Under the pieces are notes generated by a model. That model was not told the DNA's origin. It saw nothing but the letters and a program-made list of their open reading frames with translations, and did not search any database. From NCBI GenBank assembly GCA_025936755.1, contig JAICSS010000023.1, positions 1-40,550 of the forward strand: a stretch of DNA of 40,550 nt, in the 5' to 3' direction. The position numbers were made by a program, and so were the translations under genes. Origin of the DNA: Solirubrobacterales bacterium (lineage in GTDB: Bacteria; Actinomycetota; Thermoleophilia; Solirubrobacterales; 70-9). Every line of letters begins with the position of its first letter. Position 1 is the first letter of the stretch. Positions 16,586 to 40,550 of this stretch are shown piece by piece.

Positions 16586-17613
16586 GCGAGGACTTCACCT
16601 GGCGCGACGCCGGGCGCACCGTCGTCTTCCGCCGCGAGGGGATGCCGCGTGCGCTCGAGGTGCTGCGCGAGCACGGGGTGGGGGAGTTCGAGCTGCTGAG
16701 TACGGAGCGGGCGCTTGGGGAGGCTCCGGACCTGGCCGAGGTGGCGAACGGAGTGCATCTGGTGGGGCACGGGCAAGTCCCGGCCGCCGCGGCGCCGGTG
16801 TTGGACGCACTCTCGCCCCCTTGCCTGCTTAGTGAGGGGGCGAGAGTGCGTCCACTCGTAGCGCTCGGCGGCGGCCGGGTGGTCGATGTGGCGAAGGCGG
16901 TCGGGGCCGTGTCGGGTGCGGAGGTGGTGGCGATTCCGACGACGTTGTCGGGGGCGCCGATGACGGCGATTCATCGCCTGCCCGGGGGGGCCGAGGATCG
17001 GGCGCAGGTAATGGTGCGGCCGTCGCTGGTGATCGCGGACCCGGCGGCGATGACGGGACAGAAGGAACGGGAACTGCGGGCGAGCGCGATGAACGCTCTG
17101 GCGCACGGGGCGGACACGTTGTACCTGCCAGGGTCGAACCCGGTCTCCGAGATGACGGCGATGCGGGGGGCGGAATTGATCGGGTCGGCGCTGGACGAAG
17201 AGCGGGTGGAGCGGGACAGGGGAGACCTGGCCCTCGGCGCGATCCTCTGCGGCTACGCGATCGACTCCGCCGGCTTTGGCCTCCACCACTTGATCTGCCA
17301 GACCCTGGTCCGCATCTGCGGCACCCCGCACGCGGAGACGAATGCCGCGATCCTGCCGCAGGCGGTCGGTTTCCTGGCCGAGCGCGCCCCAAAGGCGTAT
17401 GAGGGTCTCGCTGCTTCTCTCGGGACCGATCTCCCCGGCCTTCCCGAGAGGATCGAAGAGCTGGGTCGGCCCCGGCGCCTCAGCACCCTCGGCGGGGACG
17501 AATCGCGGCTCGACGAGGCGCTCGAGGCGATGCTCCAGCGGCCGGAGCTCCAACAAGTGCCGGGGCAACCGTCCCGTGCAGACCTCGCGAAGCTCGTTCA
17601 GGCGGGGTGGTAA
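16582..17613 (+). CDS. Maleylacetate reductase-like iron-containing alcohol dehydrogenase
   Basis: A 343-residue member of the Fe-ADH/dehydroquinate synthase-like superfamily. VALGGGRVVDVAKAV is the NAD(P)-binding glycine loop, NALAHGADTLY and FGLHHLICQTLV carry metal-ligand His, and PHAETNAAILPQAV matches the maleylacetate reductase signature. The reaction would reduce maleylacetate to 3-oxoadipate. The start is TTG 16582, overlapping the dioxygenase stop as TTGA; no ATG is near the homologous start. Codons about 74-91, between the N-terminal region and the Gly loop, are encoded by a 20-bp perfect inverted repeat (16802-16854). A longer open frame upstream is only antisense noise. Confidence 0.85.
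   Translation: MSEDFTWRDAGRTVVFRREGMPRALEVLREHGVGEFELLSTERALGEAPDLAEVANGVHLVGHGQVPAAAAPVLDALSPPCLLSEGARVRPLVALGGGRVVDVAKAVGAVSGAEVVAIPTTLSGAPMTAIHRLPGGAEDRAQVMVRPSLVIADPAAMTGQKERELRASAMNALAHGADTLYLPGSNPVSEMTAMRGAELIGSALDEERVERDRGDLALGAILCGYAIDSAGFGLHHLICQTLVRICGTPHAETNAAILPQAVGFLAERAPKAYEGLAASLGTDLPGLPERIEELGRPRRLSTLGGDESRLDEALEAMLQRPELQQVPGQPSRADLAKLVQAGW
16802..16854 (+). repeat. 20-bp perfect inverted repeat inside the maleylacetate reductase gene
   Basis: Arms 16802-16821 and 16835-16854 are exact reverse complements with a 13-nt loop. The element is translated in frame, giving the stretch LDALSPPCLLSEGARVRP. It replaces the usual Ala-rich helix of the family at this point. Its sequence differs from the cysS element. 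Confidence 0.85.
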
Positions 17614-17617
17614 GCGG

Positions 17618-17662
17618 CGAGTCCGCAAAACCTGACGAAATGCGTCAGGCCTTGCGGACTCG
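17618..17662 (+). terminator. Two-step hairpin after the maleylacetate reductase gene
   Basis: CGAGTCCGCAA (17618-17628) pairs with TTGCGGACTCG (17652-17662). After a 2x2 internal loop, CCTGACG (17631-17637) pairs with CGTCAGG (17643-17649), with a 5-nt loop. It starts 4 nt after the stop. The CGAGTCCGC arm also occurs in the hairpin at 30599. Confidence 0.6.
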
Positions 17663-28432: not shown

Positions 28433-29551
28433 ATGTATTTCGACCTCACCGACGAGCAGCAGGCGATCAAGTCGACCGCCCACGATTTCCTCGGCGCCCG
28501 CTTCAAATCGGAGCGGCTCCGCGAGATCGCCGCCGGCGAGAGCGGCTTCGACGAGAGCGGCTGGAAGGAGATGGCCGAGCTCGGCTGGGCCGGCCTGGCG
28601 CTGCCCGAGGAGTGGGGCGGCCAGGGCCTGGGGATCGTCGACCTCGCCGTCCTCTTCGAGGAGATGGGCCACGTCTGCGCTCCCTCGCCGCTGCTCTCGA
28701 ACACGATCGCCGGCCTGGCGATCGCCGCCGCCGGCTCCGACGAGCAGAAGGAGCGCTGGCTGCGGCCGCTGGCCGAAGGCGAGCTGCGGGGGACGCCGGC
28801 GTTGTTCGACGCGGGCCATCCGGTCGAGATCGGCAAGTTCGCGATGACGGCCGAGAGCGACGGCGACGCCGTCGTCCTCAACGGCGAAAAGACCCTGGTG
28901 ATGGACGCGGCGAGCGCCGGCTTCTTCCTCGTCGCCACCGCCGACGGCCACCGCCACATCGTCGAGAGCGGGGCCGGCGGGGTCACCGTCATCCCCGAGG
29001 AGTCGATCGACCCGACCCGCCGCCTCTCCTCCGTCCGCTTCGAGGGCGTGCGGCCGGAGGCGACCCTTCCCGGTGCGGGCGAGGACTACATCCCCGTCTT
29101 CCTGCGCGCCTGCGTCGCCCTGGCGGCGGAGTCGACCGGGCTGGCCCAGCGGGCGCTGGAGATGTCGGTCGCCTACGCCAAAGACCGCCAGCAGTTCGGC
29201 CGCCCGATCGGCGCCTACCAGGCCGTCTCGCACCGCTGCGCGCAGATGCTGCTGGAGACCGAGAACTCGCGCTCGGCCGTCTACGGCGCCGCCTGGGCCG
29301 CCGACGCCGAGCCGGAGTCGCTGCCGCTGGCCGCGGCGATGGCCAAGGCCTACGCCTCCGACGCCGGCTGGCGGGTGCCCGACGCGGCGATCCAGGTCCA
29401 CGGCGGGATCGGCTTCACCTGGGAGCACGACCTCCACTTCTTCCTCAAGCGCGGCCGCGCCAACGCCGCCTCGCTGGGCGACGCCAAGTGGCATCGCGAA
29501 CGCGTCGCCGACGCCGTGCTCGCCGGCGAGACCGCCCCGGCCAGCTCCTGA
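28433..29551 (+). CDS. Acyl-CoA dehydrogenase 2 (FadE-like partner)
   Basis: A 372-residue acyl-CoA dehydrogenase family protein. The N terminus FDLTDEQQAIKSTAHDFLG and GLALPEEWGGQGLGIVDLAVL are typical. The middle domain is divergent: the usual TEPxxGSD loop is not seen and the beta-region reads ESDGDAVVLNGEKTLVMDAASAG (two pieces). The end has DRQQFGRPIGAYQAVSHRCA and QVHGGIGFTWEHDLHFFLKR. Lack of a clear FAD-loop Thr/Ser suggests it may work with the preceding gene product as the second subunit type. It has no strong ribosome binding site; the gap of 31 nt suggests the same transcript. Confidence 0.88.
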   Translation: MYFDLTDEQQAIKSTAHDFLGARFKSERLREIAAGESGFDESGWKEMAELGWAGLALPEEWGGQGLGIVDLAVLFEEMGHVCAPSPLLSNTIAGLAIAAAGSDEQKERWLRPLAEGELRGTPALFDAGHPVEIGKFAMTAESDGDAVVLNGEKTLVMDAASAGFFLVATADGHRHIVESGAGGVTVIPEESIDPTRRLSSVRFEGVRPEATLPGAGEDYIPVFLRACVALAAESTGLAQRALEMSVAYAKDRQQFGRPIGAYQAVSHRCAQMLLETENSRSAVYGAAWAADAEPESLPLAAAMAKAYASDAGWRVPDAAIQVHGGIGFTWEHDLHFFLKRGRANAASLGDAKWHRERVADAVLAGETAPASS

Positions 29552-29565
29552 CGGCGAGCCCGGCC

Positions 29566-30594
29566 GTGAGCGCCCTCGATCGCATCTCCGTCGCCGCGAT
29601 CGGGACCTCCGTCGCCGACCTCGAGGCGGAGACGCTGCGGGCCGAGGCCGCCGGCGTCGAGTGCGTGTGGGCGCCGGAGCTCTTCCGCAGCGCCGTCACC
29701 CAGGCCACCTACCTGGCGGCGAAGACCGAGCGGATCGGCGTCGGCACCGGGATCGTCTGGGCCTTCACCCGCAGCCCCTTCATCCACGCAATCAGCGCTC
29801 TCGACGTCGACGAGATGTCCGGCGGCCGCTTCCGCCTCGGGATGGGGGCGGGGGTCAAACGCCTCAACGAGACCTGGCACAACGCCGACTACGGCCGTCC
29901 GGCCCCGCACCTGCGCGAGGCGATCGAGGCGACGCGGCTGATCATGCGCCAGGCGAGCGCCGGCGAGCCGATCCGCTACCAGGGCACCTATTACGACATC
30001 GACATCAAGGGCTGGGTGCGCCCGCACCCGGCGCCGCGCGAGGCGGTGCCGATCTACACCGCCGCGGTCCAGGCCGGGATGGCGCGGATGGCCGGCGACG
30101 TCGCCGACGGCCTGATCGGGCACCCGATCCAGAGCCTGCGCTGGATCGACGAGGTGGTGGTCCCCGCCTTCGAGGAGGGCCTGCGCCGCTCCGGCCGCGA
30201 CCGCCCCGGCTTCGACTACCTGCCGACCGTCTGCTGCGCGATCGACGAGGACGAGGGGCGGGCGATCGAGATGGCCCGCCGCACGATCTCCTTCTACGCC
30301 ACCGTCAAGACCTACATGCCGCTCTGGGAGCTGCACGGATTCGCCGGCGACGCCGTTGCCGCCGGCGAGGCGTTCCGGCGCGGCGACCTCGCTGCCGTCC
30401 CCGCCGCGATCAGCGACGAGATGGTCGAGGCCTACTGCGCCGCCGGCCCCCTCGACAAGGTCCGCGCCCGGGTCGAGGCGACCGCCGAGCGCGCCGACGG
30501 CCTCTTCCTCACCCCGCCCACCTACTTCATCTCTCCCGAGGAGTTGAGCGAGTTCCAGAACCGCATCATCGACGCCTTCGGGCCCGGCGCGTGA
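29566..30594 (+). CDS. LLM-class F420/flavin-dependent oxidoreductase
   Basis: A 342-residue member of the bacterial luciferase-like family. Seen are the N-terminal strand ISVAAIGTSVADLEAE, ERIGVGTGIVWAFTRSPF, GGRFRLGMGAGVKRLNETW, and IYTAAVQAGMARMAGDVADG, all usual landmarks of F420-dependent members. GTG 29566 follows the acyl-CoA dehydrogenase by 14 nt. The F420 or FMN choice cannot be decided from the motifs alone; F420 is favoured for actinobacteria. It overlaps the next gene by 4 nt (GTGA). Its place in an acyl-CoA operon suggests a role in lipid or steroid-like substrate oxidation (inference). Confidence 0.87.
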   Translation: MSALDRISVAAIGTSVADLEAETLRAEAAGVECVWAPELFRSAVTQATYLAAKTERIGVGTGIVWAFTRSPFIHAISALDVDEMSGGRFRLGMGAGVKRLNETWHNADYGRPAPHLREAIEATRLIMRQASAGEPIRYQGTYYDIDIKGWVRPHPAPREAVPIYTAAVQAGMARMAGDVADGLIGHPIQSLRWIDEVVVPAFEEGLRRSGRDRPGFDYLPTVCCAIDEDEGRAIEMARRTISFYATVKTYMPLWELHGFAGDAVAAGEAFRRGDLAAVPAAISDEMVEAYCAAGPLDKVRARVEATAERADGLFLTPPTYFISPEELSEFQNRIIDAFGPGA

Positions 30595-30908
30595 GCGCCG
30601 AGTCCGCGTCAGCCCGTCCTGGAGAGGGGTCGACGCGGACTCGCGAGCTGGAGGTGCTGGAGCGGGTGCGGGAGATCCCGGAAGGGTTCGTTCGCACCTA
30701 CGGGGACGTGTCGCCGGGGGCGCCGCGGTTCGCCGGCACGGTCCTCTTCCACGCCGACGATCCCGACCTGCCCTGGTGGCGCGTGGTCCGCGCCGACGGC
30801 TCCCTCGCCAAGGGCGACCGCCAGCGGGCGCTGCTTCGGGCCGAGGGGGTCCCCCTCCGCGGCGGCCGGGTCGACATGGGCCGCGCCCGCATCGTCATCT
30901 GCCCCTAG
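30591..30908 (+). CDS. Alkyltransferase-like (ATL/MGMT-family) protein without active-site Cys
   Basis: A 105-residue protein with the MGMT DNA-binding fold core: LERVREIPEGFVRTYGDVS (recognition helix region), PWWRVVRADGSLAKG and ALLRAEGVPLRGGRVDMGRA. The active-site PCHR of true alkylguanine transferases is replaced by PWWR, so this is an alkyltransferase-like protein that flips alkylated bases out and flags them for nucleotide excision repair. GTG 30591 overlaps the preceding stop. The N-terminal 17 residues are encoded by a hairpin (30599-30643). The last codons and stop fall in a 32-bp palindrome (30891-30922), so the protein ends IVICP, as does the convergent protein. Confidence 0.85.
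   Translation: MSAESASARPGEGSTRTRELEVLERVREIPEGFVRTYGDVSPGAPRFAGTVLFHADDPDLPWWRVVRADGSLAKGDRQRALLRAEGVPLRGGRVDMGRARIVICP
30599..30643 (+). repeat. 12-bp inverted repeat inside the ATL gene start
   Basis: CGAGTCCGCGTC (30599-30610) and GACGCGGACTCG (30632-30643) are exact complements, loop 21 nt. It begins 8 nt after the GTG start. The CGAGTCCGC arm is shared with the hairpin at 17618. The encoded residues (3-17) are outside the conserved fold. Confidence 0.7.
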
Positions 30909-30922
30909 GGGCAGATGACGAT
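30891..30922. repeat. 32-bp perfect palindrome across two convergent stop codons
   Basis: The palindrome is centred at 30906/30907 with no spacer: bases 30891-30906 are the exact reverse complement of 30907-30922. The core is GCCCCTAGGGGC. Both genes read the same codons into the same stop TAG, so both proteins end IVICP. It could be a bidirectional terminator without loop, or the trace of a template-switch event. Confidence 0.85.
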
Positions 30923-31429
30923 CAGGTGGAAGTCGGCGTCCTCGTTGTTGCCGTCTTTGTCTTTGGTCCGGACCTCGATCCCGTTCGGGTTCGCGGCCGA
31001 GCTGTTGGTCTGGGCGTAGCCGGCGTTCGGCACCGCGGTGCCGGCGTTGTTGCGGGCGGCGACGTCGGCGCAGCCGGTGACGTTGAAGGGGAAGGTGACG
31101 GTGACCGCGCCGCCGCCCTCGACCGCGGCGATGTTGGGGCCGCTCGCCCGCGCCAGCGCCGCGTTGCCGGGACTCGGCGGGTTGTGGACGACCGCCCAGA
31201 AGGTGTGCGTCGCGACCTTCGCGAACGGCACCGTGCCGAGCTTGTTGGTGTTGACCTGGAACCCCGTCAGCGTCTTCTTCTTCAGCTTGCCGCCGCCGAT
31301 CGTCTGCTTCTTGATCGAGCCGCCGTTGATCGTCTGCGCTGCGTAGGCGGTGCCCGCGAGGGCGACGACGAGGGCGATCACCGCGACCACCATCGCCGGC
31401 GAGGGGCGCATCTTCGAAAGCTTTCTCAT
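30905..31429 (-). CDS. Secreted protein of a Thermoleophilia-type family
   Basis: A 174-residue exported protein. The basic start and hydrophobic core (AMVVAVIALVVALAGTAYAA) form a signal peptide cut near residue 31. A Lys-rich segment (GGSIKKQTIGGGKLKKKTL) follows, resembling the short repeats seen after this signal in related actinobacterial proteins, then a beta-rich globular part with a Cys in TGCADVA and a terminal VICP. ATG 31429 is preferred: GGGAG lies 7 nt upstream and it begins just before the signal; a start 42 nt further upstream is weaker. It converges on the ATL gene with overlapping stops. Function unknown; cell surface or secreted. Confidence 0.78.
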   Translation of the reverse strand: MRKLSKMRPSPAMVVAVIALVVALAGTAYAAQTINGGSIKKQTIGGGKLKKKTLTGFQVNTNKLGTVPFAKVATHTFWAVVHNPPSPGNAALARASGPNIAAVEGGGAVTVTFPFNVTGCADVAARNNAGTAVPNAGYAQTNSSAANPNGIEVRTKDKDGNNEDADFHLIVICP

Positions 31430-31505: not shown

Positions 31506-32168
31506 CTACCCGGGGAGCGCGGCGACGAAGCGCTCGAAGGCGGCCATGTCGGTGACGGCGGGGCCGTGGCCGGGGAGGATCAGCGAAGGGTTCAGCGCGG
31601 CCAGCTTGCGGATCGAGCGCCGGTTCTCGGCCGGGTCGGGCGTCAGGTCGGCGGGCGGCTCGGCCAGCCTGCTTCTCAGCGTGACGTAGCTGATGTTGCG
31701 GATCACGTCGCCGCAGATCGCCACCCGGTCGGAGTCGCGGAAGAGGATCACCTCGCCGGGCGCGTGGCCGGGGGCGTGGACCACACGGAAGCCAGCGACC
31801 TCGTCGCCCTCCCGCAGAACCCGGTCGACCTTGTGGGGAGGCCCCGTCCAGAGCTTTCCGAAGAGTTGGGCCATCGGCTTGGGGCTGGCCGCCACCGGCC
31901 GCCGGCCCTCCATCGCGTCGACGTCGTCGGCGTGGCAGGCGAGCGGCACGCCGCGCGCCTCGCAGATCGCCTTGGCGCAGCCCTGGTGGTCGGGGTGGAC
32001 GTGGGTCAGGGCCACCTCGGAGATCTCACGACCCTCCAGCTCGGCGAAGATCCGGCGCTTGTCCCAGCGCCGGCCGGCGTCGATCAGGACGTCCTCGGCG
32101 AGGTAGACGTTGATCAGCGGCCGGGGGGCTTCCTTCAGCCGCCAGACGCCCGGCGCCAGGTACTTCAA
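31506..32168 (-). CDS. Metallo-beta-lactamase-fold hydrolase
   Basis: A 220-residue enzyme. The zinc motif THVHPDHQG gives the HxHxDH site. APGHAPGEVILF, CGDVI and ILPGHGP supply the remaining metal ligands, so both zinc sites look complete. The glyoxalase II/lactonase-like subgroup is likely, but the substrate is unknown. The start is TTG 32168, overlapping the upstream gene stop (TTGA), so it is the last gene of a coupled three-gene minus-strand operon. A longer frame extends into that operon but is out of register with homology. Confidence 0.85.
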   Translation of the reverse strand: MKYLAPGVWRLKEAPRPLINVYLAEDVLIDAGRRWDKRRIFAELEGREISEVALTHVHPDHQGCAKAICEARGVPLACHADDVDAMEGRRPVAASPKPMAQLFGKLWTGPPHKVDRVLREGDEVAGFRVVHAPGHAPGEVILFRDSDRVAICGDVIRNISYVTLRSRLAEPPADLTPDPAENRRSIRKLAALNPSLILPGHGPAVTDMAAFERFVAALPG

Positions 32169-32413
32169 TGCGAGATCCCGAGCCCCTGGCGCGGCTCGCC
32201 GCTGTTCTGGGCGAGGCTCTCGAGCCGGGCGATCTGCCGCTCGCCCTCGGCCCGCGCCGGGTGGCCGGCGGGCAGCGGCTCGATCAGGCGGCGGATGCGG
32301 TTGCGGACCTGCAGCGCGAAGTGGGGGGTGACCGGGCCGGCGAGGGCGCGGATGTCCTCGACCGTGAGCTCCTTGCCGCCGCCGAGCAGCTGGGGGTTCT
32401 CCGACTCGCTCAT
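32165..32413 (-). CDS. Small conserved-looking hypothetical protein, 82 residues
   Basis: A soluble helical protein (LTVEDIRALAGPVTPHFALQ, LQVRNRIRRLIEPLPAGHPA, EGERQIARLESLAQ). It overlaps the upstream gene by ATGA and the downstream hydrolase by TTGA, so it is fixed in a coupled operon, which supports it being real. No family recognised. Its charged helices suggest a partner-binding protein; this is speculative. Confidence 0.75.
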   Translation of the reverse strand: MSESENPQLLGGGKELTVEDIRALAGPVTPHFALQVRNRIRRLIEPLPAGHPARAEGERQIARLESLAQNSGEPRQGLGISH

Positions 32414-33765
32414 TCTCCGCCGCCGATCTTCGCAAGTTCGGCCAGCTCGTTCACTTCCGCCTGCTGTTCGAGCCCGATCGCGTCCTCGTCGCCGATCACC
32501 CAGACGTGGTTGTAGAAGGCGCGGGTGGGGTCGGTCGTGTAGCCGGGCTTGAGGTCGAGGAGGTAGCTGCGGACCTCGGCCGGCAGCGCCTCGGCGTCGT
32601 CGGTGAGCAGCAGCGGGCCCCAGGTGCCGGAGGCCGAGAGCGGCGCCGCGGCGGCGGCGTCGGCGGGGGAGTCGCTGCGGGCGAGGACGAAGCCGTGACC
32701 GGGGTCGTTGATGTCCCAGCCGAAGCCGCCGTCGCGGTAGCGGGCGAAGGCGACGGCGTTGGCGACCGGATCCTCGCCGGAGACGCGCTTCACGCTTCTC
32801 GAGACCTTGCCGATTTCGCGCACCACCTCGGAGGGAATCGCCGACGAGGGGCCGAGCACGTATACCGGCACCTTCGGGTGCGCCTTCAGCAGCGCCGCGG
32901 TCGGCTGCGGCAGCTGCTTCCCCTCGGCGTAGAGGACGGGATCGCCGGAGCGCGCGGCCCAGGCGGCGGCGGGCATCGCGAAGTCCGGGCTGGTGCCGGA
33001 GGCGACGACGATGTGCTTCGGGGGTGCGCCCACGAGTCGTTCGCGCAGGTTGAAGATCTGGGCCGCGGTCGCGGCCGGGTCGCCGGAGTCGACCGGCGCC
33101 GCCTTGCCGGGATAGGCGACGGTGCCGACCGCGAAGAGCGCCGCCTGCCCGGTGTCGGCGCTGCCCTGCGGGTCCAGCGCTGCGAGCGCTTCTTCGCTCG
33201 CCTCCGGCATTTCGTCGGGGCCGGAGAAGAGGATCGGCGCCCGCACTGGTTCGGCCATCAGGACGGCGGCGGCGATGGCACCGGCCCAGTCTTCTTCGCC
33301 GACGACGGTGACGGCGGCGGGTCGCTGCGACGGGGTGGTCGAGGGGAAGGCGGCGAGCGCGGCGGCGGCGGCGTTGGCGACGGGGTCGGAGCCGCCGATG
33401 CGGGTCGTGTTGTCGGTCGCGAAGCCCGGATAGCCGAGCGCTTCGGCGGTCTGGCCGGGGGCGCTCTGCGCCGGCTTGCTCGCGGCCGGAGCCGGGGTGG
33501 GCGCCGGCGCCTCGCTGCTGTGCGAGCCCCCGCCGCCGGTGCCGAAGACGATCGCCGCGGCGATGAAGACGACCGCCAGGGCGACCAGGGCGCCGAGCAG
33601 CTTCGGCGTCCCGGTCCCGGGCGGCTCGGAGCGTCCCAAATCCGCCTTCCGCGACCTCTCCGGTTTCGGCGCGCCCTTCGGCTTCGGAGCCTCCTGCGCC
33701 GTCGCCTCCGCCGCTTTCGTCTCCGCCTCGGGGACGTCGGCGTTGATCGGCCGCTTCGGGGTCAC
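32410..33765 (-). CDS. Membrane-anchored protein with cell-wall-binding-repeat-2-like repeats
   Basis: A 451-residue protein. A Lys/Glu/Ala-rich cytoplasmic tail (1-50) leads to one membrane helix (about 56-76, LLGALVALAVVFIAAAIVFG) and a Ser/Pro/Ala-rich linker. The outer part (about 118-430) holds repeats of the CWB2 type: TTRIGGSDPVANAAAAALA, VYVLGPSSAIPSEVVREIG, VKRVSGEDPVANAVAFARY and VWVIGDEDAI. Such repeats bind cell-wall polymers in Firmicutes. The GTG start has TACGTT 6 nt upstream on its strand. First gene of a coupled operon with a small protein and a hydrolase. A wall-associated sensor or enzyme-recruiting role is inferred. Confidence 0.78.
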   Translation of the reverse strand: MTPKRPINADVPEAETKAAEATAQEAPKPKGAPKPERSRKADLGRSEPPGTGTPKLLGALVALAVVFIAAAIVFGTGGGGSHSSEAPAPTPAPAASKPAQSAPGQTAEALGYPGFATDNTTRIGGSDPVANAAAAALAAFPSTTPSQRPAAVTVVGEEDWAGAIAAAVLMAEPVRAPILFSGPDEMPEASEEALAALDPQGSADTGQAALFAVGTVAYPGKAAPVDSGDPAATAAQIFNLRERLVGAPPKHIVVASGTSPDFAMPAAAWAARSGDPVLYAEGKQLPQPTAALLKAHPKVPVYVLGPSSAIPSEVVREIGKVSRSVKRVSGEDPVANAVAFARYRDGGFGWDINDPGHGFVLARSDSPADAAAAAPLSASGTWGPLLLTDDAEALPAEVRSYLLDLKPGYTTDPTRAFYNHVWVIGDEDAIGLEQQAEVNELAELAKIGGGE

Positions 33766-39634: not shown

Positions 39635-40550
39635 TGGCGGCGGGGCTGATCGACCGCTATCGCGACCGGCTCTCGCTCGAGCCGGGGGACCCGGTGGTGA
39701 CGCTGAACGAGGGCTCGACGCCGCTGATCGAGGCGCCGCGGCTCTCGGAGCGGATCGAAGCCAGGGCCTACTTCAAGTTCGAGGGGCTGAACCCGACCGG
39801 GTCCTTCAAGGACCGGGGGATGACGGTGGCGGTCTCGCGGGCGAAGGGGAGGGGGGCGGAGGCGATCATCTGCGCCTCGACCGGCAACACCGCCGCCAGC
39901 TGCGCCGCCTACGCGGCGCGGGCCGGCCTCCGGGGCGCGGTGATCGTCCCCGAGGGCAAGATCGCGATCGGCAAGCTCGCCCAGGCGCTGATGCACGGCG
40001 CCCGCGTCGTCGCCCTCCAGGGCAACTTCGACGACGCCCTGCGGATCGTCCGCGAGCTCTCCCAGAAGCACCCGATCGAGCTCGTCAACTCGGTCAACCC
40101 GCACCGCATCGAAGGCCAGAAGACGGCCGCCTTCGAGGTGGTCGAAGACCTGGGCGGGATGCCGGGTGCGCTGGCGATCCCGGTCGGCAACGCCGGCAAC
40201 GTCACCGCTTACTGGCGGGGGTTCCGCGAGGCGTCCGCCTCGGGCGACGCCGAGCTGGGCGAGCTCGAGGCCGCCAGGCCGATCCTCTACGGCTTCCAGG
40301 CCGAGGGCGCGGCGCCGCTGGTCCGCGGCGAGCCGGTCGAGCGGCCGGAGACCGTCGCCTCGGCGATCCGGATCGGCAACCCGGCGCGCTGGGAGGAGGC
40401 GATGGCCGCCTTCACCGCCTCCCGCGGCCGCGTCGCCGCCGTCTCCGACGAGCAGATCTTGAATGCCTACCGCTGGCTCGCCGACAACGAAGGCGTCTTC
40501 TGCGAGCCCGCCAGCGCCGCCTCGGTCGCCGGCCTCCTCGCCCACGGCCT
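39634..40550 (+). CDS. thrC: Threonine synthase, 5' part (runs off the window end)
   Basis: Converts phosphohomoserine to threonine with PLP. The open frame from ATG 39634 to the window end encodes about 305 residues without a stop, roughly 85% of a typical 350-residue enzyme. PLP Lys59 is in [56 protein letters not shown] and [13 protein letters not shown] are family landmarks. It overlaps hom by one base. thrB would be expected next but lies outside. Confidence 0.95.

Follow-up and report, generated by a model that had tools for sequence, protein, structure and literature searches.

The window analyzed here is a 40,550-nucleotide stretch of DNA from a Solirubrobacterales bacterium (contig JAICSS010000023.1 of assembly GCA_025936755.1). 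Between positions 28433 and 32435, two runs of genes converge on a perfect palindrome, with the following features (coordinates are those of the window):

28433 to 29551, plus strand: acyl-CoA dehydrogenase (ACAD) gene, part of a conserved syntenic block
29566 to 30594, plus strand: LLM-like oxidoreductase gene of the same block, preceding ATL (85 to 95% identical in 7 relatives; assigned to its family by eye)
30591 to 30908, plus strand: ATL-like gene (O6-alkylguanine alkyltransferase-like, lacking the active-site Cys, PWWRVVRADG; PF01035, E 5.7e-12), with a gained C-terminal VICP
30891 to 30922, no strand: perfect 32-bp loopless palindrome ATCGTCATCTGCCCCTAGGGGCAGATGACGAT, a probable template-switch and deletion scar
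30891 to 30904, plus strand: derived inverted copy, forming the last codons (I V I C P) of ATL
30905 to 30908, no strand: CTAG, the overlapping TAG stops of both convergent genes and the predicted apex (tetraloop) of an RNA hairpin
30905 to 30922, minus strand: original tract, the last codons and stop of the secreted-protein gene (ATCGTCATCTGCCCCTAG), the same in the sister genome G002
30905 to 31429, minus strand: secreted-protein gene (signal/anchor segment MRKLSKMRPSPAMVVAVIALVVALAGTAYA), owner of a conserved LIV[IV]CP end
31506 to 32435, minus strand: metallo-beta-lactamase-fold (MBL) hydrolase gene, syntenic block

The ATL-like protein has the DNA-binding fold of O6-methylguanine methyltransferases (PF01035, with matches to the solved relatives 2KIF and Atl1 3GVA) without the catalytic Cys, PWW standing in place of the methyltransferase PCH (motif read by eye). 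A hairpin at positions 30599 to 30643, whose outer arms (CGAGTCCGC...GCGGACTCG) resemble those of another one at 17618 to 17662, lies in the annotated frame of ATL, within its 5' end. Given that most relatives match only from residue 16 to 18, the true start of ATL may lie downstream of this hairpin. The secreted protein matched no Pfam or NCBIfam family above the cut-off.

An earlier sequence-only reading of the window had pointed out that bases 30891 to 30906 are the exact complement of 30907 to 30922 and that both convergent genes end in IVICP with overlapping stops. Both observations hold: the arms form a 16-nt inverted repeat, 100% complementary with a spacer of 0 nt, its symmetry broken by the flanking G/G (on the secreted-gene strand), and the two proteins end in ...ARIVICP and ...FHLIVICP, their TAG stops overlapping in CTAG. 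In the window genome (G000; 2,405,841 bases, 70.1% G+C, with one 1,907-base contig masked), this palindrome ranks second in length among the perfect loopless ones, after one with 24-bp arms on contig C43; the next has arms of 14 bp. Composition alone predicts 0.006 arms of at least 16 bp per genome, and in three simulated Markov genomes the longest loopless arm did not exceed 13. The 32-mer is single-copy even when 3 mismatches are allowed and is not covered by any Rfam family, which rules out a repeated or mobile element.

A 4-nt overlap of convergent stops is ordinary in this genome, being found in 32 of 315 convergent pairs, an approximate count obtained with a rough gene caller that missed both the ATL and the LLM-like genes. 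The common C-terminal end is not ordinary: among 229 CTAG or TTAA sites where open frames of at least 90 codons end on both strands, no other arm is longer than 7. This rules out identical C termini of convergent genes as a habit of the genome and, together with the compositional expectation and the simulated genomes, a chance palindrome. The C43 palindrome (positions 39939 to 39986) also lies at convergent gene ends and includes the last codons of the minus-strand gene, as does a 14-bp stem with a 2-nt loop at C1:100440-100469, which begins directly after the stop of the plus-strand gene. The window itself contains a further perfect inverted repeat, of 20 bp with a 13-nt loop, at 16802 to 16854 (TGGACGCACTCTCGCCCCCT / AGGGGGCGAGAGTGCGTCCA).

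The sequence-only reading had proposed aligning the C termini of both families' relatives to see which of them owns IVICP, and had suspected that this end fits the secreted protein better than ATL. The alignment assigns it to the secreted family. Its relatives come from the same genus and a neighboring one, and 12 of the 13 that match through the C terminus (window genome left out) end in CP, 11 of the 13 in LIV[IV]CP; the exceptions are G005, which ends in LIVVCPA, and the most distant relative, G013, with VVALCP. In the closest one, G002, the protein is 88% identical and the final 18 nt, ATCGTCATCTGCCCCTAG, are identical to those in the window; the same end is also found on the public contig VAYN01000021. 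Two of the rows compared, L060 and L061, are apparently public versions of G002 and G003. The ATL relatives, gathered from 101 genomes, behave differently. Their matches mostly stop at query residue 101 (R-A-R-I), homology extends only through that Ile/Leu position, and the tails beyond ARI vary (ISA, LSA, IP, LPE, IPHEP). None of the 29 ATL relatives ends in V[IV]CP, which rules out ATL as the owner of IVICP.

Since the secreted relatives keep this end and no ATL relative has it, the end of ATL is a copy of the end of its neighbor. The outgroups give this polarity, with the secreted end ancestral and conserved and the ATL end not, and the tree agrees; the secreted end alone is conserved, so the case that could have overturned the sequence-only reading, independent conservation of both ends, does not apply. 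The inverted tract is an exact reverse complement of the nearby ancestral one (16 of 16 in the arm), and the source is identical in G002. The first three nucleotides of 30891 to 30904 (ATC) are probably the Ile codon of ATL itself and, at the same time, the GAT/ATC microhomology at which synthesis would have returned, as discussed below. Independent convergence of the two C termini is effectively refuted by the identity of the arms at all 16 positions, synonymous ones included, by the lack of such an end in any ATL relative, and by a chance of about 0.006 per genome. A common C terminus of convergent genes thus need not mean either homology or convergence. The gained VICP lies beyond the conserved part of ATL.

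The relatives also reveal a lost gene, an aspect of the junction that the sequence-only reading could not have seen. Their conserved gene order is acyl-CoA dehydrogenase, LLM-like oxidoreductase, and ATL, facing the genes for the secreted protein, the metallo-beta-lactamase-fold hydrolase, and a CWB2-domain protein. In G001, G002, and G005, a gene for a small membrane protein with the 2TM domain (PF13239) lies directly downstream of the secreted gene. It sits between the secreted gene and ATL in G001 and G005, and between the secreted gene and the LLM-like gene in G002, which has lost ATL and in which 2TM lies only 9 nt past the stop of the secreted gene. A close copy of 2TM (70 to 100% identity) is present in 9 of 11 congeners, and no match to it was found anywhere in the window genome. 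By these comparisons, the palindromic junction is also the deletion scar of the lost 2TM gene.

In the tree of the syntenic-block proteins, G000 and G002 are sisters with a support of 1.0. The inverted copy carries states shared by these two genomes (ATC as opposed to GTC of the other relatives, and CCC before TAG), so the copying came later than those states; as G002 retains 2TM, it also came later than the split of the two genomes, on the window's own lineage. Accordingly, the event is younger than the divergence between G000 and G002, which differ by 0.19 to 0.38 at fourfold-degenerate sites. The sister genome went its own way, losing ATL instead of 2TM: between the 2TM stop and the end of the LLM-like gene (L062, contig C16 of G002), all that is left of ATL is some 15 nt from its start (GTGAGCGCCGAGTCC), and the breakpoint falls within the inverted-repeat arm seen at window positions 30599 to 30643.

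Strand-displacement amplification is known to yield chimeric junctions in inverted orientation, and the genome, a metagenome-assembled one in 45 contigs with an estimated contamination of 4%, could in principle contain a chimeric fold-back of this kind. However, both flanks keep the order and orientation of the conserved block, so that two switches would be required to produce the junction artificially; both genes remain in frame; and 2TM is missing from the entire genome, which is estimated to be 100% complete. For these reasons, a chimeric join at the junction is unlikely, and an assembly or amplification artefact is a very improbable explanation of the palindrome.

The palindrome is best explained by a template-switch mutation that took place once the lineage had separated from G002 and that removed a gene as well, and we consider this reading probable. 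The relatives thereby support the suggestion of the sequence-only reading that one gene end was copied onto the other by an event of this kind. In the ancestral layout, the secreted gene would have been followed by 2TM in the same direction, with ATL facing both. While the coding strand of the secreted gene was being synthesized, the growing 3' end would have reached ...CCCCTAGG, just past the stop, and switched at the 6-nt self-complementary CCTAGG in this sequence onto the opposite strand (or its own). About 13 nt would then have been copied back before synthesis rejoined the first template through the 3-nt microhomology GAT, some 300 bp further on and within the final codons of ATL. Such a return would have removed about 300 bp, comprising the 2TM gene as well as the final codons and the stop that ATL had before. 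The ATL frame would have been closed by the end of the secreted gene in reverse complement, since a TAG stop preceded by C reads the same on both strands.

Several sequence details bear on this scheme. The sister sequence CCCCTAGGATCC contains the CCTAGG seed; on the secreted-gene strand, G002 reads ATCGTCATCTGCCCCTAGGATCC and the window reads ATCGTCATCTGCCCCTAG GGGCAGATGACGAT GCGGGCG, the two diverging exactly after the 6-nt CCTAGG. Judging from the ATL end of G004, which reads TCAGGCGCTGATCCGGGC on the opposite strand, and from that of G001, the ancestral end may have been similar to ...GCTGATGCGGGC, in which case the return point would have GAT in common. This microhomology is only 3 nt long and comes from the ATL ends of the more distant relatives G001 and G004. 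A jump of about 300 bp exceeds the typical short template switches. The pre-event sequence is gone, and a single event, its strand, and its switch points are inferred.

Other routes to the same arrangement were considered. Within the 2TM gene of G002, GCATCGTCATCTG matches the ATL-side arm and its flank over 13 nt and makes 2TM a weaker alternative donor: it covers 13 nt and requires a mismatch before CAGATG, whereas with the secreted gene the arms pair at 16 of 16 positions with nothing left over. Inversion between repeats was rejected, as ATCGTCATCTG, common to the secreted gene and 2TM of G002, occurs there solely in direct orientation, and direct repeats do not support an inversion. Alternatively, 2TM could have been deleted through microhomology and the gene ends joined in a first step, after which quasipalindrome correction in later template switches, a process documented in E. 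coli (PMC7202029), would have lengthened a short imperfect repeat around CCTAGG to the 16-bp arms; convergent CTAG or TTAA overlaps with short arms are indeed abundant in the window genome. This route requires more events, the correction usually perfects an existing stem, and the ATL ends of the relatives show no partial arm from which it could have started, all of which makes the two-step origin quite unlikely.

RNA transcribed from either strand of the palindrome is predicted to form a stem of 14 bp capped by a CUAG loop; for the 32 nt, the folding energy is -26.1 kcal/mol and z is -7.0. The predicted hairpin is encoded at both mRNA ends and provides the stable GC-rich stem expected of an intrinsic terminator. 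There is no U-tract after the stem on either side (CAGGTGG on the plus strand, GCGGGCG on the minus strand), and the terminator scan did not call the palindrome. Whether actinobacterial RNA polymerase terminates at U-tract-less hairpins is disputed (reviewed in PMC12288462).

The palindrome may stand in for a terminator, and the suggestion of a bidirectional one in the sequence-only reading is plausible; such a role can coexist with an origin by template switching. A stronger proposal is that it was selected as a bidirectional terminator and for that reason exists and is perfect. In its favor, along with the strength of the predicted hairpin, hairpins are found right after the stop of the secreted gene in G003, G004, G005, G006, G008, and G010 (z -2.7 to -11.2) and not where 2TM lies within about 9 to 14 nt of it (G001, G002), and for mycobacteria it has been proposed that U-tract-less hairpins close to stop codons act as terminators (PMC12288462). 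Yet G009, G026, and G031 have no hairpin after the secreted stop, half of the hairpin in the window would be covered by terminating ribosomes, and another study, as presented in the same review, found that mycobacterial RNA polymerase requires the U-tract that is missing here. Selection also does not account for the identity of the arms with the final codons of the secreted gene. We therefore regard selection for termination as a possible but rather doubtful reason for the palindrome. The hairpins that follow the secreted stop in G003, G006, and G008 (L037, L039, and L040) are very long and similar to each other (GTTGA[CT]GGGCCGAAAACT...AGTTTTCGGCCC[AG]TCAAC), with runs of A and T in the stem; they look like a common family of bidirectional terminators with changing apices.

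The same junction has been rearranged in G010, which has lost all of ATL and most of 2TM but kept a relic of the 2TM start, ATGGCCGAGACTGGCATCGAC. Directly after its secreted stop, the 2TM start recurs in inverted orientation, exact over 13 bp (CTCGGCCATGGCG / CGCCATGGCCGAG, around a CCATGG seed); in the tract just past the stop (L066, contig C28 of G010), CCGGAACCTCGGCCATGGCGACTGGAATCCCGCCATGGCCGAGACTGGCATCGACAAGG, the relic and the inverted copy are separated by a 10-nt loop, with CCATGG in each arm. This could possibly be an independent template switch or a duplication at the same site. Since the tract can also be aligned as an imperfect direct duplication, G010 is a lead and not a second proof. 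It is conceivable but unlikely that hairpins at gene 3' ends in this actinobacterial lineage are repeatedly born by template switching from gene ends, coupled to loss of the neighboring gene. If they are, this would be a route for the one-step origin of bacterial terminators.

A literature search for terminators born by template switching or for palindromic convergent gene ends returned nothing on point, and the nearest parallels are with mutational and structural classes described elsewhere. Bidirectional intrinsic terminators between convergent bacterial genes share the position and the stable hairpin with the window palindrome; the latter differs in having no U-tract on either side, in building its stem from the last codons of both genes, and in that its hairpin is a predicted one. 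In Nematomorpha, mitochondrial genes contain perfect inverted repeats in coding sequence with both arms translated, which are reportedly many, long, and located within genes (PMC6649704), whereas the window has a single one with one arm in each of two convergent genes. The quasipalindrome mutations studied in E. coli by the Lovett laboratory (PMC7202029) likewise produce a more perfect inverted repeat through a template switch during bacterial replication, but they correct an existing imperfect repeat, and here a 6-nt seed would have grown to 32 bp.

The closest parallel is provided by the short template-switch mutations described with a four-switch-point model by Monttinen and Loytynoja in 2022 (PMC8794818), who found four-nucleotide loops to be enriched among hairpins with instantaneous compensatory mutations. 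Those cases share with the window a reverse-complement copy of an adjacent tract, a perfect stem, a four-nucleotide apex, and deducible switch points. They are found in rRNA and microRNA stems, whereas in the window the copy spans the stops of two convergent protein-coding genes and the return would have occurred about 300 bp ahead, with deletion of a gene. The junction would be an unusually legible natural bacterial template switch: comparison with the relatives gives its donor and direction, its timing in relative terms, the gene that was lost, and the likely switch points. It indicates that a single mutation can suffice to remove a gene, close the frame of a neighbor with a borrowed stop, make two unrelated proteins end in an identical C terminus, and create a strong 3' hairpin; if repeated across genomes, such events would suggest a one-step origin of gene-end hairpins. 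The junction offers a clear example of a mutation class that is already known, and its outcome here is unusual.
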